DNA from: Bacteroidia bacterium
GTDB lineage: Bacteria; Bacteroidota; Bacteroidia; Bacteroidales; JAPLDU01
Length of the DNA stretch: 48,395 bases
Direction: 5' to 3'
Assembly (NCBI GenBank): GCA_026391255.1
Contig: JAPLDU010000052.1
Coordinates: forward strand, 1 to 48,395
A program made the translations under genes and the position numbers. Below are positions 5,841 to 48,395 of this stretch, piece after piece (position 1 is the first letter of the stretch; each line of letters opens with the position of its first letter). The notes under the pieces were generated by a model. That model was not told the DNA's origin, ran no database searches, and saw only the letters and a list, made by a program, of their open reading frames with translations.

Positions 5841-6012
5841 GAAACCGTTTTGAATTTTAATAAAGCTAATTTAATGAATTATTTTTCTGCCACAAAGGCT
5901 CTAAGACACAAAGGTTCACTAAGATAATATTTCAGTAAATGAGTACTTTGTGCTCCTTGGTGTCTTAGTGACTTGGTGGCAAAATATAAAATGAAAAATT
6001 CAAAACAGTTTC
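5841..6012. repeat. Nested palindromic element
   Basis: The outer inverted repeat pairs GAAACCGTTTTGAATTTT (5841-5858) with AAAATTCAAAACAGTTTC (5995-6012). Inside is a second inverted repeat starting TGCCACAAAGGCTCTAAGA (5888-5906) and closing with TCTTAGTGACTTGGTGGCA (5963-5981). The GCCACAAAG...CTTTGTGGC type recurs widely in Bacteroidota gaps (recalled). It is non-coding. Confidence 0.7.
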
Positions 6013-7670: not shown

Positions 7671-7815
7671 TTTTGATTAACGAATATCGATTAACGATTT
7701 TAGATTTTTGATGTTATCATTAAATCAGATGATTACATTTACTTCATAAATCAGAAATCGTTAATCCTTGTTCTTAAATCAAAAAAGAATGACTTTAAAG
7801 ACAAGCACTAATTAA
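7671..7815 (+). repeat. Dispersed repeat with ATTAACGATTTTAGAT arms, copy 1
   Basis: Resembles 25901-26076. Shared words in order are TTTTGATT, GATTAACGA, GATTTTAGAT, an inverted AAATC-GTTAA arm, TAATCCTTGTTC, and GACTTTAAAGACA followed by CCTAAT or CACTAAT. The internal arms are inverted with respect to each other. Between this copy and 8028 are only TCTAAAAGCCTACGGTCTA-like words (7905-7955), with no gene. Confidence 0.6.
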
Positions 7816-9348: not shown

Positions 9349-9554
9349 GATTTGAAAATTTGTGGATTTGAAAATTTGAAGATTGAGTTCACTTCGAAAA
9401 GACTTTATTTCTTAAACCAATTAGGCTAAAGCCATGTATTTCACCGATTTGGCTTGTTACAGGACTTTATTCCAAATTTTTCATTTTTCTGAGTTGACTC
9501 AATGATAAAATTATCAAACATCCTCAAATCTTCAAATTTTCAAATCTTCAAATC
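9349..9554. repeat. TTTGAA-arm element containing a structured repeat
   Basis: The left arm (9349-9385) and right arm (9522-9554) are inverted copies of the TTTGAAAATTTG unit. Inside, 9386-9487 is homologous in inverted orientation to 39708-39846, with shared words such as CACTTCGAAAAGA, TAGGCTAAAGCC, GGCTTG and TTACAGGACTTTA. No gene is present. The arms begin 6 nt after the pseudouridine synthase stop and end 10 nt before the stop of the broken metal exporter. Confidence 0.7.
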
Positions 9555-9564
9555 CTGATATTAT

Positions 9565-10614: not shown

Positions 10615-10833
10615 TGCCTAACCTGGACGAGCCAGAACCAAATAAGAAATCACAAATCTCAAAATTCAAAACACAAATAAATATCAACCAAAAAAATAAC
10701 AAATTCAAATTAATTTGTTTCGTATTTGAAGTTTTGATATTGTTTATTATTTGTTTTTTGTAATTTGTTTTTTAGAGTTTTTTGCAAAAACACTTAAAAA
10801 TTTCAGAGATAAGGCACTGATGCCTATTGCCTG
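10615..10833 (+). repeat. About 220-bp dispersed repeat, copy 1
   Basis: Direct repeat of 30877-31093. It starts TGCCTAACCTGGACGAGCC and ends with TAAGGCACTGATGCCT-like words. Internally ACAAATCTCAAAATTCAAAA is answered by the inverted TATTTGAAGTTTTGATATTG and ATTTGTTTTTTGTAATTTG, so the core can fold back on itself. There are no open frames. It occupies most of the gap before the ABC transporter ATPase. Confidence 0.8.
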
Positions 10834-11918: not shown

Positions 11919-12057
11919 GAGATTCTTCGCTTCGCTCAGAATGACAAGTTGTTCTTTTAATTTATATGAGATTGGGGTAAATGCTTGTCATTCCGAGCGA
12001 AACGAAGTGCAGCGAGGAAACTTAGGTTTGTTTTGTTATTTTACCGGACAACAGTGA
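11919..12057. repeat. Palindromic element plus a solo terminal repeat
   Basis: GAGATTCTTCGCTTCGCTCA and AGAATGACAAG (11919-11948) pair imperfectly with CTTGTCATTCCGAGCGAAAC and the following GAAGTGCAGCGAGGAAACTT (11984-12022). Elements ending TGTCATTCCGAGCG...GCGAGGAA are widespread in bacteria (recalled). Just after it, TTTTACCGGACAACAGTGA (12039-12057) is identical to the right end of the family-1 element at 811-829, apparently a solo terminal repeat. The element splits the ABC ATPase and permease genes. Confidence 0.7.
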
Positions 12058-12105: not shown

Positions 12106-13494
12106 ATGAACAAGATACCGATTATTCTGAAACGTGAGTACCTGACCAGGGTCAGGAAGCGCTCCTTCATTATTATGACCATTATTGGTCCCCTGCTCTT
12201 TGCCGGAATTTTCGTGATCCCATCTTATCTCGCCCAGAAAGAGGACAGGGAAGAGCGTACCATTGCCGTGATTGATGATACCAACCGTGAGAATAACAAA
12301 GTGGTGGAAGGTATAAATCCATTATTCTTCAAAAAGTTACCGGAATCAAAATATATCAGATTCGAATATCTGAAAAATACGAGTGTTGATTCAGTGCGTA
12401 AGACATTCAGCAAATCAAGTTATTACGGACTGCTTTATATTCCTTCCAATATCACTTCATCAAATGTTGTCGAATATTTCTCTACCAAAGACCCTGCCAT
12501 TGATGTGAAAATGTATATCGAGGAAACCCTGGTCAAGGAACTTCAAAAGCAAAGACTCCAGTCTGAGAATATTGACAAGGACGTGCTTGAAAAGGTAAAA
12601 GCAGATATTAAATTGAATATCAGCATGAATACATTTGTCTGGGGTGAAAAGGGTGATGAAAAACAAAGCTCAACCGAGATGGCTATGATTATTGGATATG
12701 TCAGCAGTTTACTTATTTATATGTTTATTTTCATGTTTGGAGCACAGGTAATGCGTGGTGTGATTGAGGAAAAGACAAATCGCATCGTGGAGGTCATTAT
12801 CTCGTCGGTAAAACCTTTCCAACTGATGATGGGCAAGGTGATAGGAGTGGCCCTTGTAGGGCTTACTCAGTTCGTGATCTGGATATTGTTGACTCTCGGT
12901 ATTGTTACGGTGGCCTCATCAGTGATGCAGGAGAAAAATGCCGGTCAGTTGAAGAATCCGGTAGTGACCAATAGTATCATGAACCAGCAGGGAAGCCAGG
13001 TTGTTGCTGCTGACAATCAGAATGGCAAGATAGATGCCATAAAACAAATGTTCTCGTGGTACGACCCTGCGAAATTTACTAAAATCATCATTTGTTTCCT
13101 GTTTTATTTCCTGGCCGGTTACCTTTTATATGCTTCACTCTTTGCGGCAGTAGGATCGGCAGTCGACGGAGAGGCCGATACCCAGCAGTTCATGATGCCC
13201 ATCACCATCCCGTTGATTCTTTCCATTCTGGTCATGGTCAGCGCTATTAAAAGCCCTGACGGCCCTATTGCATTCTGGTTTTCTATCATTCCGTTCACTT
13301 CACCCATTATTATGATGGCCCGTATTCCTTTTGACGTTCCATTTTGGCAGATATTGCTGTCGGCCGGAATACTCATCATTACTTTTGTTTGTACAACCTG
13401 GCTGGCGGCTAAAATATACCGTGTCGGCATTCTTATGTATGGAAAGAAAATTTCATACGGCGAGCTGTGGAAATGGATAAAATACAAGAATTGA
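12106..13494 (+). CDS. ABC-2 type transporter permease (NatB-like)
   Basis: A 462-residue membrane protein. One helix near residues 21-43 (FIIMTIIGPLLFAGIFVIP) is followed by a large extracytoplasmic domain to about 190, then five or more helices. The VIEEKTNRIVEVIISS motif just after the second helix is typical of ABC-2 permeases such as NatB, and PF12698-type architecture fits. It partners the ATPase at 10934-11854. Its stop codon lies inside the first TTTGAA repeat unit (AATTGAAGAATTTGAAAA), so the repeat has contributed the gene end. Substrate is not predictable. Confidence 0.88.
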   Translation: MNKIPIILKREYLTRVRKRSFIIMTIIGPLLFAGIFVIPSYLAQKEDREERTIAVIDDTNRENNKVVEGINPLFFKKLPESKYIRFEYLKNTSVDSVRKTFSKSSYYGLLYIPSNITSSNVVEYFSTKDPAIDVKMYIEETLVKELQKQRLQSENIDKDVLEKVKADIKLNISMNTFVWGEKGDEKQSSTEMAMIIGYVSSLLIYMFIFMFGAQVMRGVIEEKTNRIVEVIISSVKPFQLMMGKVIGVALVGLTQFVIWILLTLGIVTVASSVMQEKNAGQLKNPVVTNSIMNQQGSQVVAADNQNGKIDAIKQMFSWYDPAKFTKIIICFLFYFLAGYLLYASLFAAVGSAVDGEADTQQFMMPITIPLILSILVMVSAIKSPDGPIAFWFSIIPFTSPIIMMARIPFDVPFWQILLSAGILIITFVCTTWLAAKIYRVGILMYGKKISYGELWKWIKYKN

Positions 13495-13809
13495 AGAATT
13501 TGAAAATTTGAGGATTTGAAGATTTGAAAATGAAGATAATTAATGAATGAATTTTAGTTAAAACTCAATATTTCAGTGAATAGCTTAACGTACGGATTAA
13601 TGTCCGGAGTAATTTATTATCATTTTAATTTTAAGCTTTTTCACATAAATGATATTAAACCGAAATTGATTTATTACATAAATATTGTTTAATACACTAA
13701 ATATCATTTGATTATATTCGTAAATCGAAATTCGTAATTCTAAAATTAATATTATTCTTTTCTGAATGTATTCAATCTTCAAATTTTCAAATTTTCAAAT
13801 TTTCAAATT
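13491..13809. repeat. TTTGAA-arm element enclosing 95-bp repeat copy 2
   Basis: The left arm (13491-13530) and inverted right arm (13773-13809) enclose about 240 AT-rich bases. These contain copy 2 of the 95-bp dispersed repeat (13659-13746) without the micro-palindrome seen in copy 1. No gene is visible inside. The right arm ends 9 nt before the response regulator ATG, so any promoter of that gene must lie within the element. Confidence 0.75.
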
Positions 13810-14995: not shown

Positions 14996-15130
14996 TGAGT
15001 GATGAGTAAACAATTGAACATACGAACAATTGAACATACGAACATACGAACATACGAACAATATAACATTTTATTCATTAACACATTAATACATTCTCAC
15101 ATTTTCAAATCTTCAAATCTTCAAATCATT
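14996..15130. repeat. Word-like repeats before the fused dehydrogenase
   Basis: Words TGAGTGATGAGTAA, then GAACATACGAACA repeats (15016-15054), then AACACATTAATACATT words, then TTTTCAAATCTTCAAATCTT (15102-15121). The last block is one arm of the TTTGAA family without a visible partner. It ends at the ATG region of the next gene, which therefore has a repeat as its 5' leader. Confidence 0.8.
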
Positions 15131-21579: not shown

Positions 21580-21699
21580 TACCCGCCCCTAACCCCTCCC
21601 TGCGAGCAAGGAGGGGAAATGATCCCCGCGAAATTCGGACTTAAAACATAATGGAAAATCCCCTCCCTGCCAGCAGGGAGGGGACAATGGGGAGGGTAT
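21580..21699. repeat. C-rich palindromic element
   Basis: TACCCGCCCCTAACCCCTCC at the left is answered by the inverted GGGGACAATGGGGAGGGTA at the right (ending near 21698). Each arm carries its own hairpin: CCCTCCCTGC..GCAAGGAGGGG at 21595-21616, and CCCCTCCCTGCCAGCAGGGAGGGG at about 21660-21683. The GC richness stands out sharply from the surroundings. It is non-coding, about 120 bp, and similar elements are common in Bacteroidota drafts (recalled). Confidence 0.75.
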
Positions 21700-22827: not shown

Positions 22828-23281
22828 ATTTGAATATTTGAGGATTTGAGGATTTGAAAATTTGAAAAATCTAAAATAATCATGATAATTATGAGACAGG
22901 ATAGAGATAATTTGATTTTGAAACTTACTCTTGAGTTTGCTTTGAATGTCATTGAATATACGGAATTGCTTGAGAATAATAAAAAGTACGTTATAGCCAG
23001 CCAATTATTGAAATCAGGGACTTCAATAGGTGCAAATGTAAGAGAAGCACAAAATGCTGAAAGTAAACCGGACTTTATTCATAAAATGAAGATAGCATCA
23101 AAAGAAGCCGAAGAAACTGCTTATTGGTTGACTCTTTGCGAGATGTCTGTTAATTTCCCTAAAGACGAACGATTAAGTGAAAAACTCCAATCCATTATCA
23201 ATGTACTATCTAAAATAATAATTACTTCAAAATGTCAATAATATAATCCTCAAATTTTCAAATCCTCAAATTTTCAAATTA
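22828..23281 (+). mobile_element. Putative S23 cassette with TTTGAA inverted arms, copy 1
   Basis: The left arm (22828-22869) and inverted right arm (23248-23281) consist of TTTGAGGATTTGAAAATTTG units and bracket one gene (22891-23241) with almost no other sequence. The arms begin at the base after the thiL stop. The arrangement recurs at 37141-37609. Mobility is inferred from recurrence; no transposase or target duplication was identified. Confidence 0.5.
22891..23241 (+). CDS. S23 four-helix-bundle protein (23S rRNA intervening-sequence protein family)
   Basis: A 116-residue helical protein starting MRQDRDNLILKLTLEFALNV. Core motifs LLKSGTSIGANVREAQNAES and FIHKMKIASKEAEETAYWL define the S23/IVP family (PF05635, TIGR02436). 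These proteins were first found in intervening sequences of 23S rRNA genes and are related in fold to the Avd protein of diversity-generating retroelements. Function is unknown. The ATG at 22891 is preferred over 22882 because it aligns with the second copy at 37208, which is about three quarters identical by eye. It lies inside paired inverted arms. No reverse transcriptase or rRNA gene is in the window. Confidence 0.9.
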   Translation: MRQDRDNLILKLTLEFALNVIEYTELLENNKKYVIASQLLKSGTSIGANVREAQNAESKPDFIHKMKIASKEAEETAYWLTLCEMSVNFPKDERLSEKLQSIINVLSKIIITSKCQ

Positions 23282-26076: not shown

Positions 26077-26158
26077 TTGAGGCCAGTTTGTACTGAGGAT
26101 TTGAAAATTTGAGGATTTGAAAATTTGAAAATACTGTTATCATTATTACTCATAACTA

Positions 26159-28722: not shown

Positions 28723-28850
28723 AATAATCGAACAATAGAACAATCGATTAATTGAACAATCGAACAATTATCACATTATCACATTGCCACATTATTACAT
28801 TGCCACATTTTCAAATCTTCAAATCTTCAAATCTTCAAATCTTCAAATCT
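28723..28850. repeat. Three abutting word arrays
   Basis: GAATAATCGAACAAT words (28723-28769), then TTATCACATTATCACATTGC words (28767-28808), then about five TCTTCAAA units (28808-28850). The last array runs into the 3' end of the purine nucleoside phosphorylase gene and supplies its ATT-TGA ending on the minus strand. Confidence 0.85.
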
Positions 28851-30876: not shown

Positions 30877-31093
30877 CCTAACCTGGCCGAGCCGGAACCA
30901 GAAAAAAACACAAATCTCAAAATACAAATAACAAATAAATTTCAATCAACAAAATGACAAATTCAAAGTAGTTTGTTTCGTATTTGAAATTTTGATATTG
31001 TTAATTATTTGTTTTTTGTGATTTGTTTTTTGGATTTTTTTGCCAAAACTTTTCAAGGTTCCAGAAATAAGGTACAAATGCCTTATGCCTTAT
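30877..31093 (+). repeat. About 220-bp dispersed repeat, copy 2
   Basis: Direct repeat of 10615-10833, starting CCTAACCTGGCCGAGCC and sharing ATTTGTTTTTTGTGATTTG and AAATAAGGTACAAATGCC. It is preceded by TTAGCCTTTAAGCCTACAGT words. It is non-coding and lies between lpxK and the TPR protein gene on opposite strands. Confidence 0.8.
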
Positions 31094-33650: not shown

Positions 33651-34060
33651 TAAACGCTAAAGACGCAACAGTCGCAAAAGTAACTTATTTAATAAACTCA
33701 CATACAATATTATGAATCAGCATTAATGTTAATTATCTAATTAATTATCCTTAGGCGCTTAAGATAGCAAACTAACCAACATGTTGTCGCTATTCTTATT
33801 CCCGTGAAACGGATTTAATCCGCCTCAGGCAGATCAAATTTGCACATTTTCAAATTTTCAAATTAATTTAGCGCCTATTGCGTCTCTTGCTTTAATATTT
33901 GTTGAAAAAATGTTTTAGATTATTCAGGTTGACAAATTCAAAACAAACTCTGACATGGAGATATTTTATTACACCGAAATTTATTTATTACATAAACATT
34001 GTTTAATCCACTAAATATCATTTGATTATATTCGTAAATCGTAATTCGTAATTCTAAAAT
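33651..34060. repeat. Mosaic intergenic repeat region with 95-bp repeat copy 3
   Basis: Words CGCTAAAGACGCAACAGTCGC (33655-33675) and, inverted, TAGCGCCTATTGCGTCTCTT (33870-33889) suggest an element with degraded ends. Within it lie a micro-palindrome TCCGCCTCAGGCAGA (33819-33833) and a short TTTTCAAATTTTCAAATT arm (33847-33866). Copy 3 of the 95-bp repeat follows at 33973-34060, lacking the palindrome of copy 1. No gene in 33603-34125. Confidence 0.7.
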
Positions 34061-37100: not shown

Positions 37101-37140
37101 AACCGTACTATCCTCAACCCACAGACATGATCCTAATTAA
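34126..37140 (+). CDS. RND-family efflux permease, orphan
   Basis: A 1004-residue inner-membrane proton-driven pump of the AcrB/MexB-like resistance-nodulation-division superfamily. It has the 1+5+1+5 helix layout with two large periplasmic loops (about 30-335 and 545-850). The N-terminus YSYSNLKTGLFPDITFPKI is typical. The proton-relay Asp pair is D396-D397 in MGLMIDDAVIVAEQI, and the second half has GIVGENAVFTCQKY in the matching position. Usual partners, a membrane-fusion protein and a TolC-like channel, are not adjacent, so substrate is unknown. The TAA stop is followed immediately by the S23 cassette arm. Confidence 0.9.
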   Translation: MKHLHFHYKKPLLGLVLFLVLAGIYSYSNLKTGLFPDITFPKIKVIADAGQQPVDKMMAAVTIPLENSIRRTEGLDYIHSTTSRGSCEISVYLAWGTDVDEARLQIESFINQAKENLLPGTEVSVEKMNPSILPVMGFSLEGKRSQIELKKIALLQIKPFLAATPGVSDVVVTGGKTKEYQVILNPEKLSELGISPRQIADVIENSQVLKSNGYISDHDRLYLTLTDNAIVNLTGLENLVIRNTPQREIRLKDIALVKIGEMKEYVKINANGKDVPLIAVVKQPDANLIEVNTGVLQKVKELEKILPSDVRLRPFYLQADFVNDSVKSIKDVLWIGLVLSIIVVIIFLRSMRSSFAVGLTIPASLALTLVVLYSAGYTFNIMTLGAIAAAMGLMIDDAVIVAEQIHRSSEEQPDEPMPSVISKAIHYLLPALVSSSLATIVIFIPFVLMSGVAGAYFKVLAFTMIIALASSFFVTWLVLPLFFLIFPNRKNPKPIKTIENKGAWISWIIHRWYISLAFAVACIAIIYILPQRMPSGFLPEMDEGGIVLDYSSPPGTTLEETDLMLRKVDKILQQIPEVESFSRRTGTQMGFFITEPNTGDYLIQLKKKRENTTDDVSDVIRKKIEASIPELRVDFGQVIGDMLGDLMSSVQPVEIKVFGDNKEKLETISVQIAGIVGQVKGTADVFDGIVIAGPEIKVEPMVAKLAQFGINPSDFQFQMETQLEGNVISSIMEKEQMVNVRMMYPGAQQLSLNSLKKGDILLPNGLLKPVNSVTNIYLEKGVAEIERENQKMMGVVTARLNNRDLGSTLKDIQSEIRKKLSLPSGYHVEFGGSYAQQQRAFSELLTILFIACLLVFIVLLVMFRGFIISLYIIGLALLGIAGSLLALFITKTPLNVGSYTGIIMIVGIVGENAVFTCQKYLQARLSLSPEQSIRSAISARLRPNLMTASAAIVALLPLALGIGTGSQMHQPLAIAVIGGFIFALPLLLIVLPTVLSSTHRHDPN

Positions 37141-37609
37141 TTTGAAAATTTGAAGATTTGAAAATTTGAAAATAAAGCAAAATCAATAATATTCGTAATT
37201 TATAATTATGAGAAATGATAAGAATAATTTGATTGTGAAGCTGACATTTGAGTTTGCTTTGAAAATCATTGAATATTCGGAGTTGCTTGAAAATAACAAG
37301 AAATATATTATTGCAAATCAATTACTGAAATCAGGAACATCAATAGGCGCAAATGTCAAAGAGGCTCAAAATGCAGAAAGCAAAGATGATTTTATTCATA
37401 AGATGAAGATTGCAGTAAAAGAAGCTGATGAAACTGAATATTGGTTAAATCTTTGCGAGATGTCATTCAAATATCCAAAAGATGAACAATTAATAGAAAA
37501 TCTTCATGTAATTATTAACATCCTTTCAAAAATAATCAGCACATCAAAATCTCATTAGACTAATCACTTACATCATTTCATTTTCAAATCTTCAAATTTT
37601 CAAATATTT
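37141..37609 (+). mobile_element. Putative S23 cassette with TTTGAA inverted arms, copy 2
   Basis: The left arm (37141-37173; TTTGAAAATTTGAAGATTTG, then more units) starts at the base after the RND stop; the inverted right arm is 37580-37609. It encloses only the S23 gene 37208-37558. The layout matches 22828-23281. Confidence 0.5.
37208..37558 (+). CDS. S23 four-helix-bundle protein, second copy
   Basis: A 116-residue paralogue of the protein at 22891, starting MRNDKNNLIVKLTFEFALKI, with the same core (LLKSGTSIGANVKEAQNAES, FIHKMKIAVKEADETEYWL). Same length with no gaps, about 28 substitutions by eye. Most substitutions are conservative, which suggests the protein is under selection and not simply debris. 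Both copies point the same way as the upstream gene. Function is unknown; RNA or nucleoprotein binding is inferred from the family origin in 23S rRNA intervening sequences. Confidence 0.9.
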   Translation: MRNDKNNLIVKLTFEFALKIIEYSELLENNKKYIIANQLLKSGTSIGANVKEAQNAESKDDFIHKMKIAVKEADETEYWLNLCEMSFKYPKDEQLIENLHVIINILSKIISTSKSH

Positions 37610-41148: not shown

Positions 41149-44100
41149 TTATTTAATTAATGTAATATTCCCTTTTTTGAAAATTCTCTGACCACTCCCG
41201 CAAATAGCGCTCAGATAATAATAAAATACCTGAACGTCCAGCACTTCATCGGTTCCACCCTTACTGCCATTCCAGGTAAATGAAATATCATTTGTCTCAT
41301 AGATACAATCTCCCCACACGTTATAAACCCTGAAATCAAGAAATATGATGTTATCAGAATGCTCTGCAAATAAAAAATCATTTATATTATCTCCGTTCGG
41401 AGAAAATGAATTGGGAATATCAACATAACATGGACATTCAGCCAGTCTGTCATCAACGGTAATGGTAGTAGTGCCGGTAAGTGCCCTGGTGCAACCTGCG
41501 GCATCAGTGACCGACATTAAACTATAAACAGTACTTACCGGGTAAGGTGCAACACAATAAGGAGGTATTTTTTCCAATAAATACCTGACCGTATGCGTCG
41601 CAAAATTTTCTGTAATATCATTCACCCCATCACCTAAAGTCACATTGAACGGGGGTGAACCAATCATAGAGATACATACATTGGGTATAATACAAGGACA
41701 AACAGAAGTATCTGAACAACAAAAGAAGGCATCAGGGGTCGGGTCAACTTTGACCAACGCTGAACTGCTGATATTAAATGGACATTGTTTTGTATTCGAA
41801 TCGCTCACAGTGATTATGCTATATGCAGTAGTCGAAGACGGTGAAACTTTAAATATCTTAGGAGAAGTGGTTATTCCGGATAAGATAATTGAAGGGTCAC
41901 CTAAGCCATCATCTATACTTACATTCCAGTTTGCAACCCCTGTAAGATCAAGAACCAGCATAATACTGTCGGATATACAGATCGGGTTTTTTTCTCCGGG
42001 CGCAATAATCAGAGAAGCGGTTGGTACAGTAACGGGATGAAAATTCAACGGGATGTTTAAAGGAATAGTATCAACACAACCATTTGTAATAAACCCGGTA
42101 ATCAGTATCAGACCCAGAGAAGGATTAACAGTAAAGCAACATGGCATGGTAATGCAGGACAATGTCACCGATTGAACATTATTATTTTGAGTATAAAAAA
42201 CCGTCCAGGGACCTGTTCCCGGCAGGTTTATGCAAACAGAAGCTTCTTCCTGTCCTTCACAGATGGTATCAGTAGTTATATCAGTTGCTAAAATAGTCTG
42301 CTGGTCAATTATGTGTACTTTAATACTGTCAGTAATGCCGACGTCACAGGATGCCGGGGTCGAATCCATAATATGTAACAGTACTACTTCAAAATAACCG
42401 GAAGTATTCGCAGGCAAAGGATTTTGAACGGGCATTTCATAAGGATTCTGAAATACCGGGCCTAACACGGGTTGTGGAGTGATTGTACCGCCAATAGGAT
42501 TTTCAATGCCCGGGGTGATGTAAAATGGGGGTGATCCGGTAAGTTCAACAGGGATAAAAACAACAGTGGGAAGTCCGCAGATATCTAATGAATCATCTTC
42601 AATATGTGCATCCGGAACCGGGTAAACGATCATCGGTCGCATCCCGCTGACAGAGCCGTTACAACCTGCCTGTGGCTCATTGGAATCTCCGACCGAATAA
42701 AGACTGAAAATATAAACATGTGGGAAAATCACTGTCGAATTAGCGGTAGGAAAATATTCAATATTTCCGGTATAAGTACATGTTGTGCCGATCTGGGTCA
42801 GGGGATTACAACCAGGCAGACCCGTGGATATATCAAAACAGGCAAAGTCAGGGTCAGGTAAAATTCCATCGCTGTATAAAAGATAAAACGGCGGAACTCC
42901 GTTGAACGTCAGATGAAGAATAATTGTGTCATCCTCACATGTCGTTCCGGGAACCGGTGAAGGTGGCAAGGTGGTTATGCTGTCAAGGATCGCTTCAGGA
43001 TTTGGTACAATGACTATGTTGCATGTATTAAAAAGCGGATTCCCCGGACAGGAAACTACGGAACCGAAAGAAATTTCAATTGAATTAATTGTCAGAGTAT
43101 AAATTGATGTCGGACAAATTGTTGAATTGCAATTGACTAACGGAGGAAGTGGCAGAAATACCATTTCATAACTATTCACCGTATTAATCGTATCAGAATA
43201 TGTGGTGGTTAAGGAAGAAGGCGGTGAAGCCTGGGAAACCGTGTAATTGACGGTATAAACCGTACCCGGTGCACCTATGACTGTTGCAGGCACACCAGGA
43301 TAAACAGAAAGGGAATCACAGCATATCTCAACCTGAGGATCATTGATTGTAACTGCAGGAACAGGGTAGATATTCAGATCACAGGTATCAGAAAGTGTGC
43401 AGGCATTGCAGGCTGGATCAGCTCCTGAAAAAGAGACACTCACCGAGTATTCGAGAGTATTAATTACATAAGGGACCCAGTAAGGAGCACCAGGTGAAAA
43501 AGTATATACGGGTGGATTAGGGACTACATAATTTGGCACATTCATTGTTAAAATCGGCCCGCCCGACGGGGTAATATTGTTACCCTGTAAGAATAAATCA
43601 ACTGTTTTACCAATATAGGAAACAGGAAAATGAACTGTAATCATATTTTCAGAAAGATCTGATGCACAATATGCTGTACCACAATTAATATTAATGGAAT
43701 CATTTGGTACAGTAATAATGATTGAATCAGTAACATTACAAAGGATTCCCTGTAACCCGGTAAAACTAACGGAATAATAATATGTTCCCGGACATAAGCA
43801 TGAAATATTTTGTAAATTAGAAATGAAAGCAGGATTAAAGTTATTTGTCCATTGAATTAAATATGGGGGTATTCCACCTGTGATATTCAGGTTTATCGAA
43901 CCATCACAGCATCCTGAATTTGAACAGTCATTATGTGTAGAACTTATAGTAATTTGAGTTGGTTCCTTGATTGTGTCAGTCAGGATGATCTGTGGGTATC
44001 CTGTTTGCGGGCAATTATTAAGATCATGTACATTTACTGAATAAATTCCTGCGCCAATACCAATCAAATCCCCAACAGTTGCATTAAACGGACACAGACA

Positions 44101-47100
44101 GGCACCATTGCATATCCAGTTGAAATTATACGGAGCAGTACCTCCGACTACAGCAATATTTATTGCCCCGTTACAATCACCGTGACAATTTGCATTTAAT
44201 ATACTACCAAAAGAAGCAGTAACCGGTTGAGGTTCATTAATATAATAACATAAGGTAGTGTCACAGCTTGCAGCATCAGTAATTGATATGCAATAATAAC
44301 CCGGAGGCAGGCTGGTATATGGAGAAGACAGGATATTGCCTGATGAATCAATGCATGTAATAGTATATGGAGGTACACCGCCTGCCACATTCAGACTGAT
44401 AGAACCGGTCGGAGCCCCATCTACTGAATTACATTGGCAGTCATTTATTACAGCACTGATTACTATTGGCAGATGTTCAGGAACAACACAGGTATCAACT
44501 TTCCAGCAACCATGTGCATCCGTGACAGTAGCAAAATATACACCTCCTCCAAGATTACTGGTGCAGGGTAATGTATCAACAATAGAATTTGACCAGACAT
44601 ATGAATAGGGCAGTGTTTCTCCGGAAGCACCAACACATGCTGTCCCGCCAAGATTTGTATAACATGAACCTGCTAATGTTGTTGTGCAATGAAGGTTAAA
44701 TGCAGTTGGTACATTAATAAAGAAAGTTGCCGTATTTTTGCACCCCGAAACATCCGTCACACTTACAGAGTATGTACCACAATGGTCGTTAATATCTGAA
44801 TCTGTAGTACCATTTGACCAAAAATATGCATAAGGTGAATTTTCTCCGGTAACCGAAGTAATAATACTTCCGTCATTGGTTAAGTTTACAGGATTGTCAG
44901 CAGAATTACAGGTACAATTTGTAATTGAACCGGAAATATTTAAGGGCGATGGAGAAGAAATATTGTAATCATCAGTATTCGAACATCCGTGTGAATCGCT
45001 GACAGAAACAGAATAATTACCGGGCAGAAGATTATTTATATGATTTAACCCCGGACATGGCGTCGGTGACCAGCAATATGAATAAGACGGGGTCTCGCCA
45101 GTCACGGTCAAAGTGATTGAACCTCCCTGATAACCAATATCCTGGTGATTACAATGTGTATTAATAACTGATGATGAAATATTTAGAGCAAGAGGTTGGG
45201 TAATCTGAGTGCAATTCGGAGGTAATGGTGTTGAATCAAGAGATGAACATCCGTTAGAATCAGTGATGGTAACACAATAGATGCCGATTTTCAGACCGGT
45301 AATATTTATCGTATTAGAGAAACCGGTTCCTGAAGTATAAGGTAGTCCGTTTTTAGTCCATAAATAATCGTAAGGAGCTGATCCACTGCTAATGCTTAAA
45401 GTAATAGTTCCGTCAAAATGTGAACCGTTGTCAGCCGGGTTACATGTACAATTGGTTGATGTAATAGAATAAATCACTGGCTGGATTGGAGGCAGGTCTA
45501 TACATAATGAATCAACGCAATTGTTAGCATCTATTACGGTTACACAATAAGTTCCTGATAATAAATTGCAGATATCAGCATCTGTCATTCCATTGCTCCA
45601 ATGGTATGTATAATCCGGGAGACCTCCTGTTACTGTCAAATTTATACAGTATTCACAATTTATTATTGAAATGCTCTTAGATATTGAAATACAGGGTGGT
45701 TCATCAAGATATAAATGTAAAACCATAGGTGGTACAGGGCATCCTGTTGCATCGGTTATGGTGACAGAATATAAACCAGATAACAAATTGGATATGCAAT
45801 GTATCCCGGCATCAACAAACGGATGAATCGAATGATCAGGATACTGCCAGACAAATTGGTAAACCGGGTTACCACCTGAAACATTCAGGCATATCTTTCC
45901 GCTGGCATCACCGCAGCATATCGGTTTATACAGATGTGAAATTACCATTATTTCAGGCGGTGTGACCAGGCTATCACAATTTGCATCGGGGAAATAACAG
46001 GAATTGCTGTCAGTGATTGTTACACAATAATTTCCAGCTCCGATGCCGGTCAAATTCTGACTGGTTGAACCATTAGTCCACAAATATTGATATGGACCAG
46101 TTCCTCCTGTGGGAGTAATATCGATTTCTCCATTATTCCCAGGTGTATAACAGCTTGGATTTGAAACTATTTCGTTAACAGTTAAAGGAGCAGGCTGACC
46201 TACAGTGAAGTTTCCAAAATATGAACAATTATTAACGTCGGTTATTGAAACGTAATACAAACCGGAATGAAGTCCGGAAATATCCTGTGTATAATATATA
46301 GGATTCATTCCTGAATCGAACCAAAAGAAAGAATAATCAGGAGGTGTTGTTCCTCCCGAAACAGTAATATTTATTTGACCATCCTGGCTATCCGGGCAGG
46401 TGCAATCACCAATATGAGCGGTTACAGAAATTGAATTTGATTGTGAAATTACATAATATCCTGAAATTTGGCATTCATTGCAATCGGTCACTGTAACAAT
46501 GTAATTTCCCGTGCACAGGCCCGTCATTAGATTTGTCGTGGATCCATCAGACCAGAGATACTGATAACCCTGTTGACAAGTTGAATCACCACCTGTCACT
46601 GTTAATAAAATAGTACCGTCACATATAGAACACGAAGTATTGGAAATATTGCTGTTAATATTTATCTGGGCGGGTTGGGACACAGTATATACCGCAGATT
46701 CAACGCAATTGTTAGCATCAGTAACAGTCAGAAAATAAATTCCGGCTGTAAGACCAGAGATATCTTCCGTTGTTTCAGAGTTTGACCAATTAAAATAATA
46801 AGGTACCACCCCACCGGAAACGGTAATGTCTATGTTGCCTGTTTTATTACCGAAACAGGGAAGTACATTTGTTATGGTATCAGATATGCTGATTCTGACT
46901 GGTTCAAAAACATCAAAGTTATCGGATATTATACATCCGTTGGCATCCGTCATAGTAACTGTGTAATTGCCTCCGTTTAAACTGTTAATATCTTCTGCAG
47001 ATGATCCGTTCGACCATATGAAAACATATGGCATGACTCCACCACCGGGTGTAATATTAATTGAACCATTGGTGCTTCCCCAACAGGTAACAGGTGTGAC

Positions 47101-48395
47101 ATTTCCACTCAAGGTAAGCGTATCTGGTTGTGATATATTATAGCAGGCAGTTATTGTACAATTATTTGAATCAATAACCGTAACACAATATAAACCTGCG
47201 CAAAGTGTACTAATATCCTCATGAGTCGCTGAATTTGACCAGTAATATGAATATGGCAGGGTTCCACCTGTTATGCTTATGTCAATTGAACCATCACAAT
47301 TGCCGTTACAACGGGAGTTGGTCGTCACCCCATTTATAGTTAACTGGTACGGTTCATCAATTATATAATATCCTGTTGCTTCACAACCATTTACATCGGT
47401 GACTATCACTGAATAAACACCTGCAGTAAGATCTGAAATATTATCTGTAATTTCACCATTTGACCATACATAGGAATATGGCGATATTCCTCCTGTTACA
47501 AAAAGGTTAATACTTCCATTATTGTTACCGAAACAGGGAAATACATTTGCAATGGATGCAGATAAGCCGATGCTGTCTGGCTCAAAAACATTATAGGTTG
47601 CTGTTATGATACAACCATTGGCATCCGTCATTGTAACTGTGTAATTACCTCCGTTTAAACTGTTAATATCTTCAGTTGTCGATCCGTTCGACCATAGGAA
47701 AACATACGGTTTGACTCCACCACCGGGTGTAATATTAATTGAACCATTGGTGCTTCCCCAACAGGTAACGGGTGTGACAATTCCACTCAAGGTTAGTGTA
47801 TCTGGTTGTGATATATTATAGCAGTCAGTTATTCTACAATTATTTGAATCAATAACCGTAACACAATATAAGCCTGCGCAAAGTGTACTAATATCCTCAT
47901 GAGTCGCTGAATTTGACCAGTAATATGAATATGGCAGGGCTCCACCTGTTATGCTTATATTAATTGAACCATCACAATTGCCGTTACAACGGGGGTTGGT
48001 CGTCACCCCATTTATAGTTAACTGGTACGGTTCATCAATTATATAATATCCTGTTGCTTCACAACCATTTACATCGGTGATTATCACTGAATAAACACCT
48101 GCAGTAAGATCTATAATATTATCTGTAATTTCACCATTTGACCATACATAAGAATATGGCGATATTCCTCCTGTTACAAAAAGGTTAATACTTCCATTAT
48201 TGTCACCGAAACAGGGAAATACATTTGCAATGGATGCGGATAAGCCGATGCTGTCTGGCTCAAAAACATAATAGGTTGCTGTTATGATACAACCATTAGC
48301 ATCCGTCATGGTAACTATGTAATTACCTCCGTTTAAACTGTTAATATCTTCAGTTGTCGATCCGTTCGACCATAGGAAAACATACGGTTTGACTC
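41149..48395 (-). CDS. Giant SprB-repeat adhesin with CHU_C sorting domain, N-terminus beyond the window
   Basis: About 2414 codons are visible; the frame runs off the right edge. From the edge: about 20 SprB-like modules of about 70-80 residues (pattern GSINIT..GG..PY.Y.WSNG....I..L..G.Y.V.VTD.NGC), then about 900 residues of Ig/PKD-like strands rich in paired Cys. The last 90 residues (CPCYVDIPNSFSPNGDNIND to GNITLIK) form a gliding-motility-associated CHU_C (type B T9SS) sorting domain. SprB of Flavobacterium is a motile cell-surface adhesin; a role in adhesion, gliding or matrix is inferred. The first modules form a 678-bp higher-order repeat. porP/sprF follows directly. Confidence 0.93.
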   Translation of the reverse strand, partial: VKPYVFLWSNGSTTEDINSLNGGNYIVTMTDANGCIITATYYVFEPDSIGLSASIANVFPCFGDNNGSINLFVTGGISPYSYVWSNGEITDNIIDLTAGVYSVIITDVNGCEATGYYIIDEPYQLTINGVTTNPRCNGNCDGSINISITGGALPYSYYWSNSATHEDISTLCAGLYCVTVIDSNNCRITDCYNISQPDTLTLSGIVTPVTCWGSTNGSINITPGGGVKPYVFLWSNGSTTEDINSLNGGNYTVTMTDANGCIITATYNVFEPDSIGLSASIANVFPCFGNNNGSINLFVTGGISPYSYVWSNGEITDNISDLTAGVYSVIVTDVNGCEATGYYIIDEPYQLTINGVTTNSRCNGNCDGSIDISITGGTLPYSYYWSNSATHEDISTLCAGLYCVTVIDSNNCTITACYNISQPDTLTLSGNVTPVTCWGSTNGSINITPGGGVMPYVFIWSNGSSAEDINSLNGGNYTVTMTDANGCIISDNFDVFEPVRISISDTITNVLPCFGNKTGNIDITVSGGVVPYYFNWSNSETTEDISGLTAGIYFLTVTDANNCVESAVYTVSQPAQININSNISNTSCSICDGTILLTVTGGDSTCQQGYQYLWSDGSTTNLMTGLCTGNYIVTVTDCNECQISGYYVISQSNSISVTAHIGDCTCPDSQDGQINITVSGGTTPPDYSFFWFDSGMNPIYYTQDISGLHSGLYYVSITDVNNCSYFGNFTVGQPAPLTVNEIVSNPSCYTPGNNGEIDITPTGGTGPYQYLWTNGSTSQNLTGIGAGNYCVTITDSNSCYFPDANCDSLVTPPEIMVISHLYKPICCGDASGKICLNVSGGNPVYQFVWQYPDHSIHPFVDAGIHCISNLLSGLYSVTITDATGCPVPPMVLHLYLDEPPCISISKSISIINCEYCINLTVTGGLPDYTYHWSNGMTDADICNLLSGTYCVTVIDANNCVDSLCIDLPPIQPVIYSITSTNCTCNPADNGSHFDGTITLSISSGSAPYDYLWTKNGLPYTSGTGFSNTINITGLKIGIYCVTITDSNGCSSLDSTPLPPNCTQITQPLALNISSSVINTHCNHQDIGYQGGSITLTVTGETPSYSYCWSPTPCPGLNHINNLLPGNYSVSVSDSHGCSNTDDYNISSPSPLNISGSITNCTCNSADNPVNLTNDGSIITSVTGENSPYAYFWSNGTTDSDINDHCGTYSVSVTDVSGCKNTATFFINVPTAFNLHCTTTLAGSCYTNLGGTACVGASGETLPYSYVWSNSIVDTLPCTSNLGGGVYFATVTDAHGCWKVDTCVVPEHLPIVISAVINDCQCNSVDGAPTGSISLNVAGGVPPYTITCIDSSGNILSSPYTSLPPGYYCISITDAASCDTTLCYYINEPQPVTASFGSILNANCHGDCNGAINIAVVGGTAPYNFNWICNGACLCPFNATVGDLIGIGAGIYSVNVHDLNNCPQTGYPQIILTDTIKEPTQITISSTHNDCSNSGCCDGSINLNITGGIPPYLIQWTNNFNPAFISNLQNISCLCPGTYYYSVSFTGLQGILCNVTDSIIITVPNDSININCGTAYCASDLSENMITVHFPVSYIGKTVDLFLQGNNITPSGGPILTMNVPNYVVPNPPVYTFSPGAPYWVPYVINTLEYSVSVSFSGADPACNACTLSDTCDLNIYPVPAVTINDPQVEICCDSLSVYPGVPATVIGAPGTVYTVNYTVSQASPPSSLTTTYSDTINTVNSYEMVFLPLPPLVNCNSTICPTSIYTLTINSIEISFGSVVSCPGNPLFNTCNIVIVPNPEAILDSITTLPPSPVPGTTCEDDTIILHLTFNGVPPFYLLYSDGILPDPDFACFDISTGLPGCNPLTQIGTTCTYTGNIEYFPTANSTVIFPHVYIFSLYSVGDSNEPQAGCNGSVSGMRPMIVYPVPDAHIEDDSLDICGLPTVVFIPVELTGSPPFYITPGIENPIGGTITPQPVLGPVFQNPYEMPVQNPLPANTSGYFEVVLLHIMDSTPASCDVGITDSIKVHIIDQQTILATDITTDTICEGQEEASVCINLPGTGPWTVFYTQNNNVQSVTLSCITMPCCFTVNPSLGLILITGFITNGCVDTIPLNIPLNFHPVTVPTASLIIAPGEKNPICISDSIMLVLDLTGVANWNVSIDDGLGDPSIILSGITTSPKIFKVSPSSTTAYSIITVSDSNTKQCPFNISSSALVKVDPTPDAFFCCSDTSVCPCIIPNVCISMIGSPPFNVTLGDGVNDITENFATHTVRYLLEKIPPYCVAPYPVSTVYSLMSVTDAAGCTRALTGTTTITVDDRLAECPCYVDIPNSFSPNGDNINDFLFAEHSDNIIFLDFRVYNVWGDCIYETNDISFTWNGSKGGTDEVLDVQVFYYYLSAICGSGQRIFKKGNITLIK
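46893..48395 (-). repeat. 678-bp higher-order repeat inside the adhesin gene
   Basis: 46893-47570 and 47571-48248 are near-identical and a third copy begins at 48249 and leaves the window. Each copy encodes three different SprB modules (226 residues). Offset checked from the GCTGTCTGGCTCAAAAACA word at 47572 and 48250 and its relative at 46894. Copies 2 and 3 are closest. Confidence 0.88.

Follow-up and report, generated by a model that had tools for sequence, protein, structure and literature searches.

S23 cassettes in short operon gaps: a probable selfish element resembling the intervening sequences of rRNA

The window analysed here is a stretch of 48,395 nucleotides from a Bacteroidia bacterium of the order Bacteroidales (assembly GCA_026391255.1, contig JAPLDU010000052.1, forward strand). 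It contains two genes for S23 / four helix bundle proteins. Gene 1 (22882-23241, plus strand) encodes 119 aa and has an alternative ATG start at 22891; gene 2 (37208-37558, plus strand) encodes 116 aa. Both proteins match PF05635 (77.8 and 74.9 bits, cut-off 33.8) and TIGR02436 (87.5 and 88.4, cut-off 24). An earlier, sequence-only reading of this DNA had described two S23 genes about three quarters identical, each enclosed by inverted TTTGAA arms. Both points are confirmed. The genes are identical at 273/351 positions in DNA (78%) and 88/116 in protein, and the arms are (ATTTGARR)n arrays. In cassette 1, the left arm (22828-22864, plus strand) begins immediately after the thiL stop codon. The right arm (23243-23279, minus strand) is an inverted array, and 26 nt separate its end from an ORF with sub-cut-off matches to AsmA. 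In cassette 2, the left arm (37140-37168, plus strand) shares its first base with the stop codon of an RND-family gene, and the right arm (37585-37605, minus strand) ends 30 nt before uvrB. Cassette 2 contains a perfect inverted pair of 26 bp. The proposed arm start at the base after a stop codon is thus exact at thiL, and at the RND locus the array begins one base earlier, within the stop codon. The cassettes measure 452 and 466 nt. Each S23 gene is co-directional with its neighbor on either side. The neighbors are thiL, the AsmA-like ORF, the RND-family gene and uvrB, and there is no rRNA gene among them. No Rfam family reached its cut-off in the window, leaving the arrays without an Rfam identity.

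Arrays of the same unit are found at additional places in the window. ATTTGARRATTTG, with at most one mismatch, has 46 matches against 1.6 expected and a largest shuffle value of 5, which excludes chance. Three gene-less facing pairs noticed in the sequence-only reading are real. The first (2516-2757) lies between the convergent genes for ribosomal protein L9 and a Rid-family protein. The second (9350-9561) lies between a pseudouridine synthase gene and a convergent ORF with a cation transporter end. The third (13490-13808) is located 10 nt before a response-regulator gene. Unpaired arrays are located at 15098-15126 (minus strand, right edge of the gap), 26099-26127 (plus), 28804-28848 (minus) and 33835-33863 (minus).

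Besides TTTGAA, several more hairpin families are present in the window, as indicated by long inverted repeats of different sequence at 1009-1222, 5885-5984, 11925-12007 and 21593-21683. An additional gene-less inverted pair at 7671-7784, with a 26-nt loop, resembles by eye the TCGTTAACGATTTTTGATTTAAGAA-type arms of another S23 gene in the same genome (L011). At the far end of the window, an ORF of 2386 aa (41149-48309, minus strand) contains SprB repeats and a CHU_C type IX secretion signal in the C-terminal-side 1283 aa that were scanned.

A TTTGAA 20-mer with at most two mismatches matches the 4.08-Mb source genome 156 times in forward and 183 times in reverse orientation, and 58 TTTGAA arrays were found in 408 kb of it. 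Among arrays no more than 500 nt apart in these 408 kb, 12 pairs face each other, 3 point in the same direction (both minus) and none are back-to-back. Facing is therefore the rule for neighboring TTTGAA arrays. The left arm mostly abuts the gene at its left, and the right arm the next gene. Thirteen facing pairs lie within 800 nt, of which two enclose S23 and one a deaminase-like gene. A wider pair (about 1 kb) encloses an Mrr-type nuclease gene. TTTGAA had been taken as a mark of S23, and this had to be given up: the arrays are genome-wide, non-S23 genes lie between arms, and S23 lineages differ in their units. The interiors of the gene-less TTTGAA pairs showed no likeness to S23 and are mostly unlike one another. 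Their best match, between L067 and the pair at window position 9350, scored 31 versus 12, a weak hint of relatedness. Concerted evolution within one TTTGAA pair was considered and rejected, with an own-pair score of 25.8 versus 26.3 for other pairs (permutation p 0.80). At two loci in the source genome, L051 (1663-1902) and L057 (13066-13342), TTTGAA arrays turn into AATGTGAT arrays inside one arm, as if one repeat type were nested in or converted into another.

The 11 of 13 facing pairs that lack S23, with their mostly unrelated interiors, favor an alternative in which the hairpins came first. Host intercistronic hairpins would arise through slippage and template switching and be retained for their role in the processing or stability of mRNA. 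S23 would be a parasite of their loops, as the rRNA intervening sequence (IVS) is in helix loops. We regard this alternative as doubtful, and the evidence from other loci falls on both sides of it.

The source genome contains 18 matches to S23. Five end at contig ends, all of one near-identical lineage. Inverted arms with a score of at least 16 were found at 10 of the 13 S23 genes with readable flanks, and 3 of the 13 lack them. The arm units are TAGGCAY, GTGAATG, GCGAAC-type, GAAATACATA-type, ATTTGARR, ACGAATT, AACAATTG, CAAATAAC and one long unit. The window pair shares one unit; otherwise the unit is different for nearly every S23 lineage.

The same arrangement is found in other families of the order, where 19 of 24 S23 loci score at least 16 and 15 of 24 at least 20, the latter being the 95th percentile of a cross-locus null. 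This scoring covered 37 of 47 loci, with the contig-end S23 genes of the source genome and truncated relatives set aside. The comparison also covered the named loci, the best 80 of a scan of genome contigs, of which 79 were scored for arms and 78 entered the comparison with controls. Among these matches listed, 59 of 78 S23 genes have arms scoring at least 16, compared to 27 of 143 other ORFs in the same loci. Nine of the named loci carry labels outside Bacteroidota (Betaproteobacteria, Nitrospirae, KSB1, SAR324, two Clostridia, Oscillospiraceae, Desulfosarcina and Chlorobiota MAGs), and arms of at least 16 are present at 8 of these 9 among the matches listed, although the labels of MAGs can be wrong.

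The fairest control for the association is a comparison of gaps only, which took genes with a gap of 20-400 nt on either side. Gap-to-gap arms scoring at least 16 flank 39 of 55 S23 genes and 5 of 34 other genes in the named genomes. The flanking of S23 by arms in related genomes, which the sequence-only reading had put forward for testing with TTTGAA, is thus far more frequent than that of other genes, and the recurring cassette of S23 and inverted repeat arms is borne out, with units that are lineage-specific. In the same genomes, excess self-match at lag 7 is 0.158 in 108 gaps beside S23 and 0.036 in 128 other gaps (p ~1e-16). In the S23-adjacent gaps there is a further excess at lag 14 (0.118); the remaining lags from 2 to 15 show no excess.

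Mobile and viral sequences gave similar results. On cyanobacterial plasmids, where 16 S23 genes were read out of 28 matching records, arms scoring at least 16 are present at 9 of 16 S23 genes, compared to 1 of 32 other genes, and 7 of 16 S23 genes lack them. Their units include GGGAGTA, GGGAACA, AAAAGCY, GGTGACA and GGGAAAA. In IMG/VR viral contigs, 16 of 23 S23 genes have such arms, several of these loci being near-identical. Near-identical plasmid or viral loci (e.g. L307/L308, L316-L318 and L323/L324) were each counted singly in these figures. The association of S23 with arrays holds for Bacteroidota as well as for cyanobacterial plasmids and viral contigs, and the arm unit differs between S23 lineages.

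Among the matches listed for the named loci, S23 is co-directional with its neighbors on both sides in 59 of 70 cases, compared to 40 of 70 for control genes, and the median gaps around S23 are 73 and 53 nt. We measured arm positions in 42 co-directional cassettes with gaps below 250 nt and a score of at least 12. From the upstream stop codon to the left arm the median distance is 2.5 nt, in keeping with the earlier proposal that the arms lodge just after stop codons; between the right arm and the next ORF it is 12.5 nt. From their flanking genes, we take the host operons to include metH/metF, panB/rluD-like, purC/purF, thiolase/acyl-CoA dehydrogenase and a split metH. The hosts are ordinary operons, and the element takes up the short stretch between two adjacent genes.

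Three S23 genes on cyanobacterial plasmids are located in CRISPR operons, at L300 (1489-1848), L302 (1483-1851) and L309 (2980-3336). They lie between cas6 and cas4 in two cases and between cas10 and a cmr3-family gene in the other. Heptamer arms are clear at L300 and L302 and weaker at L309. The linkage of S23 to CRISPR at these loci may be hitchhiking. '23S rRNA IVP' is named in the figure legend on CRISPR-linked proteins in the accessible part of a CRISPR survey (PMC10910872). For S23 in CRISPR-cas and other operons, a hitchhiker that is no part of the system is an economical alternative account.

To compare one orthologous place among species, we analyzed the panB/rluD gap. The genus was taken as Flavobacterium from the closest panB matches (up to 97%) to a named Flavobacterium locus, L091. 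Among 119 genomes in which panB was found, 26 were read as new loci. The sample comprises 40 loci read, of which 38 were counted, two having no downstream gene in reach, and classes were assigned by eye. S23 with arms is present in 12 of the 38 genomes. Another 3 contain the TTAGACTTCTTAGA-type arms of the S23 cassettes with a short loop and no gene (84-94 nt). Other gene-less inserts are found in 16, short gaps of 1-55 nt in 5, and long gaps without S23 in 2. S23-filled, hairpin-only and empty gaps therefore coexist at one orthologous place, and the empty-site alleles that the mobile-cassette proposal called for do exist in the 5 short gaps. At L178, L181, L184, L208 and similar loci, the other gene-less insert consists of TAAGGTTCTGAGATGC-like units followed by a recurring GCCTCCAGCTTTAGCTGGAGG hairpin.

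The metH/metF gap was read at 30 loci out of 56 genomes found. S23 is present at 4 of the 30, including L344, where the S23 gene is real and the gap was measured from the wrong stop codon. One gap is 11 nt long and one 298 nt. That leaves 24 gene-less gaps, 18 of which are periodic at 7 nt and also fold with a z of at most -2 (from mononucleotide shuffles), with at least 4 unit types. Thus, the same slot in different species holds hairpins of changing unit, with S23 in some. This counts in favor of hairpins that precede S23. Gene-less hairpins outnumber S23 cassettes in the loci read, and some of their units are unseen beside S23, indicating that hairpins may exist without S23. These counts argue against a selfish S23 element, as do the TTTGAA arms around non-S23 genes, the S23 genes that lack arms at the score used and the 27 control ORFs that reach it. 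Many S23 inserts in the two slots also look old and vertically inherited, which counts against it as well.

In a second alternative, S23 and its hairpin are a domesticated regulator, a resident operon module acting for example on the stability of an mRNA segment and mobile only long ago. S23 is under strong purifying selection, with a median dN/dS of 0.06 for 43 pairs in the panB slot (13 genes, dS 0.05-1.5); the window pair has a dN of 0.12 and a dS of 1.49. By our naming of the slots, those at panB/rluD, metH/metF, the split metH and thiolase/acyl-CoA dehydrogenase are occupied in more than one genus. Both findings suit a regulator. However, S23 is absent from the same slot in congeners, which would be odd for a needed one, and the host operons have no common function. 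The source genome also contains multi-copy S23 fragments and MITE-like copies. We consider a domesticated regulator unlikely.

These copies belong to the CAAATAAC-type element, which is amplified in the source genome. Six fragments carry S23 sequence, five broken by contig ends and one with an internal stop codon. In two left-end and two right-end fragments, the overlapping sequence (141 and 106 nt) is identical. These may be halves of one copy, so that the S23-bearing copies number at least 4. A search with 40 of 224 candidates scored gave at least 82 matches and, within the same scope, at least about 50 places without the S23 part, more than 30 of which bear both ends. Most gene-less copies share a deletion junction, q108/q442, with an overlap of about 9 nt. 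Further junctions are q201/q420, q175/q464 and q150/q441. Two gene-less copies are located in the window. The first (10617-10827, plus strand) has the q108/q442 deletion, and the second (30877-31083, plus strand) has a long predicted hairpin fold (z -3.4). In an alignment of 20 chosen copies, the ends are sharp and unequal, and similarity outside them is nil by eye. The pattern is that of a gene-bearing element with MITE-like offspring, which are mostly internally deleted copies.

The internally deleted relatives of the sequence-only reading are thus found in the CAAATAAC-type, through shared junctions, and not in the TTTGAA pairs, whose interiors are unlike S23. The target duplication that it put up for checking is not seen where it could be tested: in 35 CAAATAAC-type copies, the mean best exact repeat is 3.43, compared to 3.14 in mismatched pairs. 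We also recorded the orientation of 39 gene-less copies. In gaps between tandem genes, 16 have the same orientation as the genes and 5 the opposite one, while 6 are at edges, 9 between convergent and 3 between divergent genes. In this small sample, the co-orientation leans towards a constraint at the RNA level. At L164, L168, L176, L054 and window position 30877, gene-less copies lie directly against other arrays (AGTCTACAGCCTA, TGCCTTATGCCT), which suggests nested insertion.

Unequal ends and the lack of a target duplication would fit single-strand transposition. A third alternative is a REPIN-like system, in which a Y1 transposase (IS200/IS605 or RAYT) moves the arms in trans via single-stranded hairpins and S23 is cargo. 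The source genome contains 4 Y1_Tnp genes, and arrays like the S23 arms of this genome lie on one side of three of them (L294 645-704, L295 162-329 and L296 1057-1090). These arrays are of three types and located about 300-1200 nt from the Y1 gene, and none of the 4 loci has CAAATAAC-type ends. With an array density of 43 per 100 kb in the source genome, arrays at such distances are about what the background predicts. A transposase that reads sequence would, moreover, not allow units to differ by S23 lineage. We judge a Y1-driven system to be very unlikely.

S23 density and array density are also related in trans. Across 39 genomes of the order, the two correlate when arrays of 6-10-nt units away from S23 are counted (Spearman 0.53, p 5e-4). 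The coefficient is 0.50 without the source genome, and the partial rank correlation on GC is 0.47. Arrays were counted at least 700 nt from any S23, since S23-rich stretches mostly came from S23-bearing contigs, and the sample excludes G015 and G038, whose stretches were read as N. Of the 202 arrays counted, 143 have a period of 7 or 8, and Markov shuffles of the stretches gave near zero arrays in most. There are exceptions, G039 with 14 S23 genes and no array in its stretch and G029 with 3 S23 genes and many arrays. A common cause, such as tolerance of repeats, could underlie the correlation.

Against hairpins that came first, S23-free genomes of the same order contain 9 arrays in 328 kb (8 kb of it N), compared to 73 in 365 kb of S23-rich genomes. 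Arms also tend to track the S23 protein across genera. In 68 loci with an arm score of at least 16 and an arm length of at most 90, cross-genus pairs have the arm in common in 42% of the 33 cases whose S23 proteins are 60-70% identical and in 83% of the 6 cases above 70% (Mantel 19/2000), a covariation confounded by shared operon slots. In addition, the many gene-less CAAATAAC-type copies with the ends of the S23 element and an internal deletion count against this alternative.

S23 is not known to have a catalytic function, and the window proteins have a pI of 6.6 and 6.3 and are not basic; both points count against a selfish element whose protein binds its arrays. Sequence comparison gave a single solved relative, 2rld, which has five chains. 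The Xanthomonas S23 protein is a homopentamer according to the accessible part of PMC4990558. The predicted RNA folds pair the arms, with z of -3.1 and -2.5 for the window cassettes, -3.4 for the gene-less copy at 30877 and -3.1 for a Flavobacterium cassette. It is plausible that S23 acts on the transcript that carries it.

S23 is also related to Avd of the diversity-generating retroelements (DGRs), and could in principle act like Avd with a reverse transcriptase in trans. The relatedness is seen in weak matches of two S23 proteins (L021 and L001) to NF033474, the Avd model, and of one cyanobacterial S23 to bAvd. The window S23 proteins fail to match the Avd model. A search with the RVT_1 profile gave no match in the source genome, which is 97.5% complete, whereas it was positive in 3 of 14 control genomes. 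A retro-element of this kind is extremely improbable.

We favor the view that the S23 cassette is a selfish, IVS-like element of mRNA gaps and a member of a widespread class, and that its S23 protein probably binds the arrays. The sequence-only reading had proposed a mobile cassette or selfish element. Its recurrence, its location after stop codons and its empty sites support that proposal; TTTGAA as its mark is not supported, and the CAAATAAC-type copies show no target duplication. As we picture it from the anatomy of the cassettes, the element would be transcribed together with the host operon, and its two arms would pair into a long stem in the mRNA. RNase III, as in the rRNA IVS, or another nuclease may cut the stem. 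Because the insert is placed between the neighboring genes, these would survive the cut. The S23 protein, pentameric in the solved relative, might read the array, perhaps one repeat for each subunit, and this would account for the constant length of the unit as well as for the drift of its sequence with the protein. As to movement, our guess is that host functions work on the hairpin in its RNA or single-stranded DNA form, and that S23 serves as a guide and not as the enzyme.

A broader version of this proposal is possible, and we offer it tentatively. S23 pentamers that read arrays would define a selfish class of operon gaps across bacteria. The heptamers of Cyanobacteria, Bacteroidetes, Xanthomonas and Beggiatoaceae would largely be its arms or remains, and the rRNA IVS would be a special case. 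Our findings join two puzzles, the role of S23 / four helix bundle proteins and the commonness of intergenic 7-nt tandem repeats. S23 elements look like very small selfish elements whose family has been overlooked, and they may explain repeats that litter many genomes. If S23 reads arrays, it would be a nucleic-acid binder that counts repeats, and the key to an element without a known transposase, recombinase or reverse transcriptase.

The element shares features with several known systems. Bacterial MITEs are short, non-coding elements present in many copies with shared ends, and arise by internal deletion of a gene-bearing element. The CAAATAAC-type shares this trait, having many copies with common ends derived by internal deletion. 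However, its parent gene is S23 and not a transposase, it leaves no target duplication, and its ends are unequal. REPINs are inverted pairs of intergenic hairpins with a rarer protein-coding relative, RAYT, and the S23 cassettes resemble them in both respects. They differ in that S23 is a four-helix bundle and not a Y1 nuclease, and in that their arms are lineage-specific tandem arrays. A RAYT gene is closely flanked by the same repeats, an arrangement absent at the Y1 genes of the source genome (n=4). Avd belongs to a homologous family of four-helix bundles, as judged from the weak profile matches. Unlike a DGR, the source genome has no RVT_1.

Heptameric tandem repeats have been described in Calothrix, in Nostoc (GGGGA(T/C)T), in Xanthomonas (GGGAATC) and in Beggiatoaceae (TAACTGA) in the available portions of two reports (PMC4692102, PMC4679880). 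There, their abundance is known and called little studied, and polymerase slippage is the idea cited (PMC4692102, PMC4679880). As far as these portions go, the published heptamers resemble the arrays described here in being 7-nt intergenic units of high copy number and scattered phylogeny, including Cyanobacteria and Bacteroidetes. In these portions they are treated as direct repeats and are not connected with S23, whereas the present arrays face each other in pairs, with S23 or a short loop between them. Among the matches listed, the titles and abstract beginnings of open-access papers contain no report tying S23 to intergenic arrays; one may exist in subscription papers or preprints, which lie outside that set.

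The closest relative is the rRNA IVS. In Coxiella, the S23 ORF is in the sense direction and RNase III cuts the inverted-repeat stem, as given in the available part of PMC4990558. The same part describes the 428-nt Coxiella IVS as having tandem GACAGAT heptamers of variable copy number that precede the S23 ORF (PMC4990558). The cassettes thus resemble the IVS of Coxiella, Leptospira and others, insofar as the sources available describe them, in having an S23 ORF inside an inverted-repeat stem, in size, in heptamers and in sporadic occurrence. In an IVS, terminal inverted repeats enclose the S23 ORF in a stem, and the predicted fold of the window cassettes has the same feature. There are differences as well. 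The window cassettes lie between protein genes, and both of their arms are heptamer or octamer arrays. S23 cassettes are many per genome, with different units and with amplified gene-less copies. Being located outside 16S and 23S rRNA genes, the window cassettes are not IVS by definition. The echo of an origin inside rRNA precursors, suggested in the sequence-only reading, nevertheless holds in their anatomy, by which the window cassettes would work like an rRNA IVS.
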